Assembly (NCBI GenBank): GCA_902605035.1
Contig: CACLBB010000005.1
Span: 1-64,000, forward strand
Length of the DNA stretch: 64,000 bases
Direction: 5' to 3'
DNA from: an uncultured Pelagibacteraceae bacterium
GTDB lineage: Bacteria; Pseudomonadota; Alphaproteobacteria; Pelagibacterales; Pelagibacteraceae
The stretch's first letter is position 1; every line of letters starts with the position of its first letter. The notes beneath the pieces were generated by a model, which saw only the letters and a list, made by a program, of their open reading frames with translations, was not told the DNA's origin and did not search any database. Made by a program: the position numbers and the translations under genes. Below, one piece after another: positions 26,367 through 30,412 of this stretch.

Positions 26367-27131
26367 ATGAATGCTAATTTTTCAAATAGGGGTTTCACAG
26401 AAATTATTCCGATTCAATTTAAAGACGAGTTAAAAAATTTACAATCAAAAATATACGGTCTTACAAAGAACCTTTTGGAAGAACATGATGATAAAATTAA
26501 TATTGCAGAGAAGATTAAGTTAAGATTTAAAAAAAAACCCTCAAACGAAATTTGGTCGAACCTTATGGAAGAGATAAATATATCTGAAGAATTGAAAACT
26601 TTAATTAATAGTAAATCAATAAAAGATACGTTTAAAATGATCTTTGACAACCCTATACCATTTGAAATAAGTACTTTTCGAGCAAGGTTTCCTGAGCAAA
26701 AAAGAGTAATGTATAATTGGCACCAAGATGAAGGAACTTGGTATTTAAGTAAAAAAAAAGAACATTTGAACAAGTTTCCAGTTACACTTTGGTTGTCTTT
26801 AAATGGCGCTAGTAAAGAAGAGTCCATCCAACTAGTGAAATATTCTCATACTCAAAAATTATTTAATCACAATTTTGTGAAAGGACAAGGTTTTTTCAAT
26901 ATAGATCAAAATGATACCATTAAAGAAAAAGATATTTTTACAGTAGAAACTAAAGCTTCTGAATGTGTCATATTTCATCCGTTGACTATTCATAGATCTG
27001 TGCCAACAAAAAAACTAAATTTGAGACCGAGATATACTATAGATATAAGATATTACGATGAAAATTTTAAAAAAGATTTTAAGGTAGATTGGAAATTTTC
27101 AATAAAAAAAGTTTTGAAAAGAATATCCTAA
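26367..27131 (+). CDS. 2OG-Fe(II) dioxygenase, phytanoyl-CoA hydroxylase-like (PhyH)
   Basis: This is a putative non-haem iron oxygenase of 254 residues. The facial triad is visible as His119-x-Asp121 (NWHQDEGTW) and His209 (FHPLTIHRSVPT), with Arg222 (RPRYTIDIRYYD) suited to bind 2-oxoglutarate. This order and spacing fit the PhyH superfamily, members of which hydroxylate lipids, small metabolites or sugars. No signal peptide is seen, so it is probably cytoplasmic. The stop and the ATG of the next gene, a methyltransferase, share one base (TAATG), so the two are probably coupled. The substrate is unknown; neighbours suggest a surface glycan or small-molecule modification set. Confidence 0.75.
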   Translation: MNANFSNRGFTEIIPIQFKDELKNLQSKIYGLTKNLLEEHDDKINIAEKIKLRFKKKPSNEIWSNLMEEINISEELKTLINSKSIKDTFKMIFDNPIPFEISTFRARFPEQKRVMYNWHQDEGTWYLSKKKEHLNKFPVTLWLSLNGASKEESIQLVKYSHTQKLFNHNFVKGQGFFNIDQNDTIKEKDIFTVETKASECVIFHPLTIHRSVPTKKLNLRPRYTIDIRYYDENFKKDFKVDWKFSIKKVLKRIS

Positions 27132-27961
27132 TGACTTTTAAAAATGAGAAGGTTCTAGATTTTTATGAAAAGCTTCCTTTTAATATTTATGGTGATCTTA
27201 AATCAGCTGAAGAACAAATAAAGAAATTCGATCCTTTAGTAATCTATCCCGAACTAAAAAAAATATTTAAAAAGTTTGAGAGAATAAAAATTATTGATTT
27301 TGGCTGTGGTGGAGGTTGGCTAGTCAATTCTATTAGTTACCATCACAGAAATAAAGCTCAGGTAACTGGAGTTGATTTTAATCCTGTAGTAATTGACTAT
27401 GCTAATAAATTAAAAAAAAAACTTAATCTTAATTCAAAATTTTATTCCTCTGATCTTTTTACTTTTCAAAGCAATATTAAATATGATCTGATTATTTCAT
27501 TGGGTGTGCTTCATCATACAAATAATTGTCATGAAGCTATCAAGCACATTTGCAAAAGTGCTTGTAAAAATTCTTTTTTGTTTCTTGGATTGTATCACAA
27601 ATATGGAAGAGAGCCTTTTTTAAATCATTTTCGTGATATGAAAGACAAGTCTGAAGATTTTAAATTCAATGAATATAAAAAATTACATAAAAATATTAAT
27701 GACGAGAAAAAACTTTACTCATGGTTTCGTGATCAAGTATTGCACCCACATGAAACCCAACATTCTTTTGAAGAAATTTCAAAAGTTTTGATTAAAGAGA
27801 GATTTAGTATTTTATCTTGCAGCATAAATAGATTTAATAAGATACAAAATTTGGAGGAAGTTTTTTCTATAGAAAAAGAACAATATCAATACTCTCTTAA
27901 TAAAATTAAAAATTGTGAATATTTTCCAGGTTTTTTTATAACAATTGCAAAAAAAGAATAG
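27131..27961 (+). CDS. Class I SAM-dependent methyltransferase
   Basis: This is a Rossmann-fold methyltransferase. Motif I is IIDFGCGGGWLV (about 54-65), the acidic ribose-binding residue lies in VTGVDFNPVVIDYA, and IISLGVLHHTNNCHEAI is the motif IV/post-II region typical of UbiE-like enzymes. The track starts at 27089 inside the dioxygenase; the ATG at 27131 (MTFKNEKVLDFYEK) is preferred because it makes a TAATG junction with the preceding stop, giving 276 residues. The C-terminal half (YHKYGREPFLNHFRDM ... VLHPHETQHSFEEI) resembles uncharacterised methyltransferases of surface-polysaccharide or natural-product clusters. Substrate not determinable here. Confidence 0.82.
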   Translation: MTFKNEKVLDFYEKLPFNIYGDLKSAEEQIKKFDPLVIYPELKKIFKKFERIKIIDFGCGGGWLVNSISYHHRNKAQVTGVDFNPVVIDYANKLKKKLNLNSKFYSSDLFTFQSNIKYDLIISLGVLHHTNNCHEAIKHICKSACKNSFLFLGLYHKYGREPFLNHFRDMKDKSEDFKFNEYKKLHKNINDEKKLYSWFRDQVLHPHETQHSFEEISKVLIKERFSILSCSINRFNKIQNLEEVFSIEKEQYQYSLNKIKNCEYFPGFFITIAKKE

Positions 27962-27989: not shown

Positions 27990-28118
27990 ATGGAAGAAAA
28001 TAAAAAAAAAAGTTTTATAGGTAAAATAATTGATTTTATAGCAAAGATATTTTCTATAAAACAAAAGAAAGAAAAAAAGAAAGAATCAAGAACTGAAGAT
28101 ATTTATCCAATGTGGTAA
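27990..28118 (+). CDS. Small 42-residue protein with amphipathic helix and YPMW C-terminus
   Basis: This reading frame is too short for the track. ATG at 27990 has AGAGG about seven bases upstream, and the stop is at 28116-28118, six bases before the SGNH hydrolase ATG. The product is a basic N-terminus, an amphipathic helix (SFIGKIIDFIAKIFSI, residues 8-23), a Lys/Glu-rich hinge (KQKKEKKKE) and an end TEDIYPMW. I do not recognise the family. Good ribosome-binding spacing and the tight fit between two genes support translation. The short aromatic C-terminal motif recalls DltX-type small partners of membrane acyltransferases, but that is analogy only. Confidence 0.6.
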   Translation: MEENKKKSFIGKIIDFIAKIFSIKQKKEKKKESRTEDIYPMW

Positions 28119-28124
28119 AAATTA

Positions 28125-29336
28125 ATGATTCGAAAATATATTGATTTCTCCAAAAACCCCATTAATGCACTCGTTCAAATATTAATAGTTTTTTTTTTTA
28201 TTCCTTTTTTTTCAACATTTTTCACAAATAGTATCTCAAGTAAAATAATATATTTTTTTTCTACGTTATTGATTTCTATAATCATTGCAGAATTTTTATT
28301 TCTTTTTCTTTATAGGTTGTTTACTGGAACTAACTATCAAATAATTGAAAAAGTAAACTTTAAAAAGTTAATGAACAAACCGCATCCTTACTTGCCATTT
28401 ATATATAAAAAAAACTTTGAAGGAGGTCGGGCAGAGCAGACTAATTACCCTTTGCATCCTGAATTTAAATCATTGCCTCTTACGACTAATAATTTAGGTT
28501 ATTTCAATGGTGAAAATGGAAATAGAGATATTTTGATACCCAAACCAAAAAACTTAGTAAGAATTAATTGTTTAGGTGCATCAACTACTGGCAATTATCT
28601 CCATGTGGATAATAAAGTTTATTCATACCCATTAGAGTTAGAAAAAATTTTAAGAAAAAAAACTACAAAAGAATTAGAAGTAAATAATTGTGCCCAAGGT
28701 GGATATAATACTGCAGATAGTTTAGTACGTTTTATCTTAAAAGATGTTGATACTGATCCTGACTATCTAATTATTTATCATGCGGTGAATGATATAAGAT
28801 CTTATCTTACTCCAGGATTTTCCTCTGACTACTCACATAGCAGGAAGAATTTGGGGGAGGTTTACTGGAAATTTCTTTTAGGTTCTAAAATACCAAATAT
28901 ACCAATTAAGTTTATCAATTACTTAAAAAATAAATTTTTATTTCCTTCTAGCGAGCAATATTCTTTGCTTGAAGTCATCAAAAAAGGACAAATAGATTTA
29001 AAGTTAGATTATTCTGAGGGACTGAAAACCTATAAAAGAAATATTCAACATATTATTGATATAAGTGTAAGTAATAAAATTAAGGTAGTTCTTTGTACAT
29101 TCTGTATGTATCTATATCCAAAAATTAAAGAAGACCCTTTGCAAAATATTTACCAAAAAATTGTTATTAAGGAGAACGAAATTTTAAAAAATCTTGCAAA
29201 TAAAAATAAATTAGAATTAGTCGATACAGCATCACTTATAGAGAAGAAAGATTCAAACTTTGTCGATGCAGTTCATTTTACGCCAAAAGGAATGCAGTTA
29301 CTGGCCCAACACATTGCAGATAAGATTAACATTTAA
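28125..29336 (+). CDS. Membrane-anchored SGNH/GDSL-family hydrolase
   Basis: This 403-residue protein has two hydrophobic segments at the N-terminus (about 15-35 and 40-62) and an SGNH domain: block I LGASTTGNY (Ser152 nucleophile in GAST rather than GDS), block III YHAVNDIRSY (Asn) and block V VDAVHFTPKGMQ (Asp/His, about 380-384). SGNH enzymes are serine esterases or O-acyltransferases, and membrane-tethered ones often de-acetylate or acetylate surface polysaccharides. Its neighbours, the 42-residue protein upstream and a convergent acyltransferase-3 11 bases downstream, fit such a role. It could equally be a lipid esterase. Confidence 0.8.
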   Translation: MIRKYIDFSKNPINALVQILIVFFFIPFFSTFFTNSISSKIIYFFSTLLISIIIAEFLFLFLYRLFTGTNYQIIEKVNFKKLMNKPHPYLPFIYKKNFEGGRAEQTNYPLHPEFKSLPLTTNNLGYFNGENGNRDILIPKPKNLVRINCLGASTTGNYLHVDNKVYSYPLELEKILRKKTTKELEVNNCAQGGYNTADSLVRFILKDVDTDPDYLIIYHAVNDIRSYLTPGFSSDYSHSRKNLGEVYWKFLLGSKIPNIPIKFINYLKNKFLFPSSEQYSLLEVIKKGQIDLKLDYSEGLKTYKRNIQHIIDISVSNKIKVVLCTFCMYLYPKIKEDPLQNIYQKIVIKENEILKNLANKNKLELVDTASLIEKKDSNFVDAVHFTPKGMQLLAQHIADKINI

Positions 29337-29347
29337 TTTGATTTAGA

Positions 29348-30412
29348 TTATTTTTTTAATAAAAAATTAATTCTTATATATTTCTTTAATTTTTTTTCGA
29401 TAAAATGATAGGAAATTAAAGAAATTATTATAATAGTAGTAATATAAGATATAAAAAAATATTCACTAAGAAAAATTTGAGTGTCATTTCTAAAATAAGA
29501 AATAAAAATTAAGCTTAGAGGTAGATGAATTAAATAACTAGAGTAAGTAAGGTTTCCTATTGATGAACAAAAATTTAAAAACTTTTTATTTGTAATGACT
29601 AAAAAATTTTCAATAGACAAAATTAACATCAATATACCTGGGCAAAAAAAGAATATCTTAAAATTATTCATAAAAGCAAAAATCAAGAATAAAGCTGACA
29701 AGAATAAAATGGTATATTCTTTATTATATTTATATAACATGAAAACTATCATGCCTGTGACAAATAATCTTATGCAACTGATTAGATCGTTGTGTTGATC
29801 ACTTTCCATAAAACCTAACTTGCTAATTATGACAAGAAAAAAATAAAATAAAAACAATTCTTTTAAACCAAGATTTTTTAATTTTGATACAGTTATAAAA
29901 AAAATAGTGTAAGCGATTATTTCTAAAGATACGCTCCATATAGGTAAATTAAAGCTAACATTTTGTTCAAATCCCCAGGCTGATATGAAAAAAAGATTCA
30001 AAAAGAAATGATATAAATCGTTATATTTAAATAAATCTAACTCATTAGAAAAATTTAAATCAGTCAATTGAATTATTAAAACAACTACTAAAGTAATGAA
30101 GTGAAGTGGGTAAAGACGAGAAAATCTATTTATAAAAAATACTTTCCAGTTATATTTTTTTATACTATCAAAATAGACATAAGAAATGATAAAACCAGAA
30201 ATTGTCCAAAAAATATGTACACCATAATCTCCGTGAACATAAATGAAATTTAAAATTTTGCCAAAAGGTAAAGTCTCAATATTTTGTTGAGAAATTTTTA
30301 ATAAATTAAAATTGTTAGACCTAAAGAAAAAAAACTCATAATGATAAATAATTACAGCAAAACTTGAAATAAATCTTAATGGTTCTATTAAATAAATTTT
30401 TTTTAATATCAT
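29348..30412 (-). CDS. Acyltransferase-3 family integral membrane protein (OafA/YrhL-like)
   Basis: This is a 354-residue protein with about ten membrane helices. The AT3 family signature is present: PLRFISSFAVIIYHYEFFF at the N-terminus (conserved Arg and His) and YGVHIFWTISGFIISYVYF (the F.xSGF motif). NRFSRLYPLHFITLVVV and SYLIHLPLSL are also typical. AT3 proteins move acyl groups, usually acetyl, onto extracytoplasmic glycans. It lacks the C-terminal SGNH domain that some OafB-type members carry, but a separate SGNH gene faces it 11 bases away, so the pair may split the same job. Low GC and very hydrophobic. Confidence 0.88.
   Translation of the reverse strand: MILKKIYLIEPLRFISSFAVIIYHYEFFFFRSNNFNLLKISQQNIETLPFGKILNFIYVHGDYGVHIFWTISGFIISYVYFDSIKKYNWKVFFINRFSRLYPLHFITLVVVLIIQLTDLNFSNELDLFKYNDLYHFFLNLFFISAWGFEQNVSFNLPIWSVSLEIIAYTIFFITVSKLKNLGLKELFLFYFFLVIISKLGFMESDQHNDLISCIRLFVTGMIVFMLYKYNKEYTILFLSALFLIFAFMNNFKIFFFCPGILMLILSIENFLVITNKKFLNFCSSIGNLTYSSYLIHLPLSLIFISYFRNDTQIFLSEYFFISYITTIIIISLISYHFIEKKLKKYIRINFLLKK

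Follow-up and report, generated by a model that had tools for sequence, protein, structure and literature searches.

In the DltX and PatA systems, the tyrosine of a C-terminal FxYxxF motif carries an acyl group to an SGNH protein (PMC12148441). The hexapeptide of PatA is FIYANF, and its acetyl-tyrosine is used by the SGNH enzyme PatB (PMC12148441). According to the PatAB paper of 2025, MBOAT/SGNH pathways apart from Dlt have no DltX-like microprotein (PMC12148441). Another small protein, GvgB, has 28 residues, about 30% of them lysine, and its gene is listed directly after the SGNH-type esterase gene gvgA; its function is unclear, and the gvgB annotation has been removed from NCBI records (PMC8067088, PMC5725424, PMC8064604). 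Production of 4-formylaminooxyvinylglycine (FVG) by Pseudomonas fluorescens WH6 depends on both gvgA (lipase/esterase) and gvgB (PMC8067088), and gvg-like clusters, composed of a carbamoyltransferase, an esterase and a small open reading frame (ORF), have been named in Acinetobacter, Pantoea and Streptomyces (PMC8064604). Here we describe a 42-residue microprotein with the C-terminus DIYPMW, encoded beside an SGNH gene at positions 27990-28118 (+) of a 64,000-nucleotide stretch of an uncultured Pelagibacteraceae bacterium (contig CACLBB010000005.1), which we refer to as the window. We propose, with a probability of about one half, that this protein and its homologues, termed YP-tailed microproteins after the Tyr-Pro pair in their tails, serve SGNH enzymes as dedicated partners on the cytoplasmic side of the membrane, with the tail docking on the enzyme.

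The YP-tailed family and its linkage to SGNH genes

Translation of the frame gives MEENKKKSFIGKIIDFIAKIFSIKQKKEKKKESRTEDIYPMW, in which 11 of the 42 residues are lysine. Comparison with the closest relative, genome G065, revealed 90% amino-acid identity, a nonsynonymous divergence (dN) of 0.052 and a synonymous divergence (dS) of 2.45, the latter being saturated. Because the codon changes are mostly synonymous (12 of the 16 listed), the comparison indicates that the frame is a real coding gene under purifying selection at the protein level. The SGNH gene (dN 0.110, dS 2.02) and the methyltransferase gene on the other side (dN 0.114, dS 1.94) have higher dN values, which suggests that the microprotein is under stronger constraint than either neighbour. 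The amino-acid differences are confined to residues 1-13, and the remainder, including the tail, is identical. A sequence-only reading of this DNA had proposed that the frame encodes a genuine small protein, that its Tyr-containing C-terminus is conserved and that it belongs with the SGNH gene, and these three claims are borne out here and below; neither a lack of conservation nor a substitution ratio near 1, which it had named as grounds for dropping the gene, was found. The gene is tightly packed, starting 28 bases past the methyltransferase stop and ending 6 bases ahead of the SGNH start, as that reading had noted. Its argument from a ribosome site is weak, because the candidate site AGAGGA, present in the window, is missing in G065.

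A protein search of the genus revealed short ORFs ending in DIYPMW, DIYPLW, DIYPFW or DIYPLY in six further genomes, each adjoining an SGNH gene and each in different surroundings. The strict DNA pattern D-I-Y-P-x-(aromatic)-stop matched in 9 of 169 genus genomes and the reversed control gave 0; the C-terminal motif is judged to lie far above chance. Searches of the family and class added further microproteins, including two from alphaproteobacteria outside Pelagibacteraceae. Scanning one genome per species (about 85,000 species) yielded 68 pattern matches, 19 of which close an ORF with a Lys/Arg cluster preceding the tail; 18 of these ORFs are short and one has 592 residues. Their sources outside SAR11 are Azospirillum and metagenome-assembled genomes (MAGs) or single cells labelled Anaerolineales, Deltaproteobacteria, Thiotrichaceae, Nitrospinaceae, Vicinamibacterales, Omnitrophota and Flammeovirgaceae. 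The Flammeovirgaceae-labelled match may be misbinned SAR11 DNA, and its SGNH protein is about 50% identical to that of the window. Members of the family share a transmembrane (TM) or amphipathic helix, a Lys/Arg cluster and a C-terminal DIYP[LMF][WYF], across Pelagibacteraceae and several other phyla. A looser motif, [DE][FILMV]YP[FILMV]x, was rejected: those of its variants that were examined proved to be chance matches, in most cases with no ORF, and convincing short ORFs occurred only with D-I-Y-P.

Among 35 distinct tails, one of them from a doubtful 18-residue ORF, Tyr and Pro are invariant, Tyr lies always exactly three residues from the end, and the last residue is Trp, Phe, Tyr or Arg; most of these tails were found by a pattern that fixes D-I-Y-P. 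Five plasmid tails were not found in that way, and from them it is clear that Ser is also allowed at position 1. In about 1.4 Mb of background DNA, the ending [IT]YP[LMF]x is very rare among unselected short ORFs. The homologues in annotated plasmid records carry no annotation, and a literature search found no mention of DIYPLW or of DUF5989.

An SGNH gene adjoins 17 of the 19 microprotein-type matches of the species-wide scan, a count made by hidden Markov model (HMM) first and then by extended DNA and Pfam, in which the assignment of L122 and L158 relies on SGNH motifs together with weak profile scores. At L110 the SGNH gene lies in the same island at a distance of about 2 kb, and L141 is solitary. 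The HMM test gave SGNH neighbours for 12 of the 19 matches versus 0 of the 49 other pattern matches (P = 7e-9). Across phyla the two genes occur in either order, and the other neighbouring genes differ. The strongest evidence for linkage is a motif-blind test, in which tblastn of the L103 SGNH protein against plasmid records revealed five homologues, in Agrobacterium, Pantoea, Streptomyces, Photobacterium and Acinetobacter; each of the five genes is closely followed by a short basic ORF that ends in SIYPLR, STYPLR or SIYPMF. Plasmid searches with the SGNH proteins of the window and of L152 gave no match, and that with L091 gave one (Gemmatirosa), without a YP tail. No SGNH relatives were found in phage records and viral contigs. 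In addition, two LIC12162-family transferases encoded near SGNH genes themselves end in the tail, L071:4314-6092 (DIYPLW) and L175:3231-4136 (DIYSLW); L175 was found by SGNH search rather than by the motif, and its family assignment was made by eye. The microprotein is thus very probably an SGNH partner.

Comparison with GvgB, DltX, PatA and DUF5989

Similar to GvgB, the window peptide is short, rich in lysine and encoded beside an SGNH gene; its C-terminus has the form [DS][IT]YP[LMF]x, as do the tails of gvg-like loci. However, it is longer than GvgB and ends in Trp, and its locus has no adjoining carbamoyltransferase or heme-oxygenase-like gene. The plasmid loci with YP tails fit the description of gvg-like clusters, and some of their SGNH/YP-tail pairs look like gvgA-gvgB pairs. 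In gvg-like loci of Acinetobacter, Pantoea, Streptomyces and A. vitis, the slot of GvgB is occupied by a protein with the tail S[IT]YP[LM][RF] (SIYPLR, STYPLR, SIYPMF). One such locus, with an unannotated YP-tail ORF, was seen at L211 (NZ_CP104448.1), a record of 4.09 Mb that is classed as a plasmid of Acinetobacter baumannii and is apparently a chromosome. Small SxtJ-like membrane proteins lie beside carbamoyltransferases in three YP-tail loci (L103:1344-1577, L081:8025-8240 and L209:6608-6754), and that of L209 could be the counterpart of GvgG.

DltX, like the window peptide, is a membrane microprotein with a Tyr-containing C-terminal hexapeptide, encoded and working with an SGNH protein. 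The tail DIYPMW does not match FxYxxF: the Tyr and the final aromatic residue are in register, whereas the first Phe is replaced by Asp, and all 35 tails have Asp or Ser there. Furthermore, DltX has an extracellular C-terminus and an MBOAT partner (DltB), whereas the YP family has a predicted cytoplasmic tail, an invariant Pro after the Tyr, and no MBOAT in the 16 peptide-bearing Pelagibacteraceae genomes examined. In PatA-PatB the hexapeptide is fused to the MBOAT protein and is periplasmic; the YP tail belongs to a separate microprotein and is predicted to be cytoplasmic.

DUF5989 (PF19451) is a family of proteins of about 50 residues which, similar to the window peptide, precede an SGNH gene, and which end in FIYTLF-COOH with the same spacing from Tyr to the end. 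A carbamoyltransferase and SxtJ occur in DUF5989-SGNH operons and also with the YP tail in L103. Unlike the YP family, DUF5989 has charges that predict a periplasmic tail, and it has Phe and Thr where YP tails have Asp/Ser and Pro. When the YP-tailed microproteins were scanned, no PF19451 match and no detectable sequence similarity to DUF5989 were found. At L176-L180, DUF5989 microproteins with an exact FxYxxF motif (FIYTLF-COOH) lie in carbamoyltransferase-SxtJ-SGNH operons; these proteins resemble the tyrosine arm of DltX, here in the context of carbamoylation. Taken as xIYPLx, the YP tail has the Tyr position and end spacing of PatA, DltX and DUF5989, on the predicted opposite side of the membrane.

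Proposed role and alternatives

Alignment of 26 SGNH partners revealed GxS and His in all, Asn in 92% and Asp in 96%, so that the catalytic GxS, ND and DxxH blocks are kept. The partners form at least five groups between which pairwise BLAST detects no similarity, yet the tail is common to them. Every TM-type microprotein listed has positive charge after the TM helix and little before it, and the single-TM SGNH proteins are alike in this; the remaining SGNH partners have two N-terminal helices, which leave both ends on the same side, or no TM helix or signal. By the positive-inside rule, the tail and the SGNH catalytic domain are predicted to be cytoplasmic, a placement that is supported but indirect.

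Based on these features, we propose that the N-terminal amphipathic or TM helix would hold the microprotein at the inner leaflet, while the Lys/Arg-rich linker would let the C-terminal [DS]IYP[LM]x-COOH reach the SGNH enzyme. The tail would dock there, most likely at or near the active site, and such docking is somewhat more likely than not. By comparison with PatA/DltX, whose hexapeptide bears an acyl-Tyr, the invariant Tyr would most likely carry or position the group handled by the enzyme, which may be an acyl group or, in certain operons, a carbamoyl group; a role of the Tyr specifically as carrier is less likely than not. The substrate may be a glycan precursor in SAR11 and amino-acid-like metabolites in gvg-like loci. 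Probably, the microprotein is an obligatory working partner of the enzyme. Support for this need is indirect and comes from P. fluorescens, in which gvgA and gvgB are both essential for FVG production, together with the presence of the tail in gvg-like loci.

Several observations weigh against this proposal. AlphaFold models of peptide-SGNH read-throughs left the tail unplaced with pLDDT of about 30-45, both for window 27990-29333 with its TAA read through, where the SGNH core was of moderate quality, and for a second read-through at L101; in these constructs the tail has no free end, being joined to the protein that follows, and the alignments are shallow. The pair lacks a conserved acyl-donor enzyme as a neighbour, and most SAR11 loci have no obvious loader for the Tyr. 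SGNH searches also led to several loci without a tail in the vicinity, and the L072 peptide is solitary. Some scan matches are MAG contigs and possibly misbinned (e.g. L096). Finally, the proposed link between the YP family and GvgB is based on position, size and lysine content.

The best-surviving alternative, which we regard as possible though less probable than the proposal above, is that the microprotein is purely a tether or scaffold: docking of the tail on the SGNH enzyme, or on a partner (for example the LIC12162 transferase), would serve only to keep the enzyme membrane-bound, and the Tyr would contribute to binding, with no chemistry of its own. In its favour, the anchors of peptide and enzyme are complementary, which also speaks for the proposal above. 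TM peptides go with TM-less SGNH proteins in 12 cases versus 2, and amphipathic peptides with TM-bearing SGNH proteins in 11 versus 3 (P = 0.002); this statistic is inflated by relatedness, and both main lineages nonetheless contain swaps (L085, L025). A tether would also fit the replacement of the peptide by a tail at the end of LIC12162 transferases, and the lack of a conserved acyl donor nearby. However, the peptide is retained even where the SGNH protein has TM helices of its own, which argues that anchoring alone is insufficient and that the tail does more than anchor. In addition, Tyr is present in every tail while the last residue varies, and the resemblance to acyl-Tyr hexapeptides would have to be a coincidence.

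It is improbable that the microprotein acts, like carriers of the LysW type, as a carrier or scaffold substrate, with the substrate built on its C-terminal carboxylate or a side chain and then released or modified by the SGNH enzyme. The fixing of the tail exactly at the C-terminus, with a free carboxylate, would suit this idea, as would the gvg-like clusters, which are thought to make amino-acid-type metabolites and in which gvgB is needed. On the other hand, the last residue varies (Trp, Phe, Tyr or Arg), no peptide ligase is conserved nearby, the tail is also found on large transferases, and the SAR11 loci are of glycan type.

The sequence-only reading had raised the possibility of a surface O-acylation module with a DltX-like small subunit; in such a model the subunit would shuttle acyl groups across the membrane between an AT3 (or MBOAT) protein and an outward-facing SGNH enzyme. 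The likeness of the tails (xIYxx-aromatic against FxYxxF) stands, and the SGNH gene is indeed adjacent with an AT3 gene facing it. However, AT3 is absent in G065, where the SGNH gene adjoins rpoD, and it occurs in only 3 of 16 peptide-bearing Pelagibacteraceae genomes; MBOAT (PF03062) was found in none of these 16, two of which are at 98-99% completeness. The distribution of charge predicts that the tail and the SGNH domain face the cytoplasm, unlike in DltX. Such a surface module is therefore unlikely, and the shuttle is a very remote prospect. An unrelated leader peptide, toxin-antitoxin part or chance ORF lying before the SGNH gene by accident might be suspected for a small, lysine-rich protein in an AT-rich genome, yet it is scarcely credible given purifying selection at the protein level, linkage to SGNH genes across phyla in either order, and fusion of the tail to large enzymes.

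Neighbouring genes and meaning for the family

The positions of the microprotein, its parts and its neighbours are collected in Table 1. The SGNH protein of the window scores 44.7 bits against Lipase_GDSL_2 (PF13472; cut-off 32.9) and belongs to the SGNH/GDSL superfamily. Its model matches the folds of SGNH esterases, PatB among them, and a sequence search of the PDB gave no match. The trio of methyltransferase, microprotein and SGNH genes is also found in G065 and G081 and is not general across the family. The AT3 gene of the window is missing at the same place in the closest relative, indicating gain or loss beside rpoD. In several SAR11 genomes (L023, L070, L125, L174), SGNH genes adjoin thyX- and mrp-like genes whether or not the microprotein is present, at sites resembling insertion hot spots. 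SGNH homologues without a YP tail nearby were observed at L164, L165, L168 and L174; G016 and G163 carry the microprotein elsewhere, and tail-less SGNH enzymes may be served in trans.

Table 1. Features of the window around the microprotein gene
Feature	Position (strand)	Description	Evidence
Microprotein gene	27990..28118 (+)	42 aa, very probable SGNH enzyme partner	Open frame; dN/dS versus G065; homologues beside SGNH genes
Amphipathic helix, about residues 7-24	28008..28061 (+)	Predicted inner-leaflet membrane binding	Hydrophobic moment 0.80, hydrophobicity below TM level; helix in model
Lys/Arg-rich linker QKKEKKKESRTE	28062..28097 (+)		Sequence; listed family members have a Lys/Arg cluster at the same place
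C-terminal tail DIYPMW	28098..28115 (+)	Family consensus [DS]-I-Y-P-[LMF]-[WFYR]-COOH	35 distinct tails; strict pattern search
SGNH/GDSL enzyme, 403 aa	28125..29336 (+)	Two N-terminal hydrophobic helices, then catalytic domain; predicted cytoplasm-facing	Lipase_GDSL_2, catalytic blocks, fold matches
S-adenosylmethionine (SAM) methyltransferase	27131..27961 (+)	Upstream of microprotein; role uncertain	Pfam; neighbourhoods L020, L021
AT3 acyltransferase	29348-30412 (-)		

Most members of the family are only 26-51 residues long, so they were missed by annotation. Tyr-tailed microproteins lie beside SGNH genes in two settings besides Dlt, one with the YP tail and one with DUF5989, in contrast to the statement that non-Dlt pathways lack such a protein (PMC12148441). 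On a more speculative level, and with less than even odds, the family might give cytoplasm-facing SGNH enzymes an acyl- or carbamoyl-Tyr arm, forming a transferase system apart from MBOAT/AT3 that would unite SAR11 surface-glycan clusters with those of gvg type. The idea of a C-terminal tyrosine arm, known from cell-envelope acylation, would then be extended to the cytoplasm. For gvgB, which is required and has no known function, the comparison offers a testable role. For SGNH enzymes annotated merely as hydrolases, the pairing suggests that many need a partner peptide to work.
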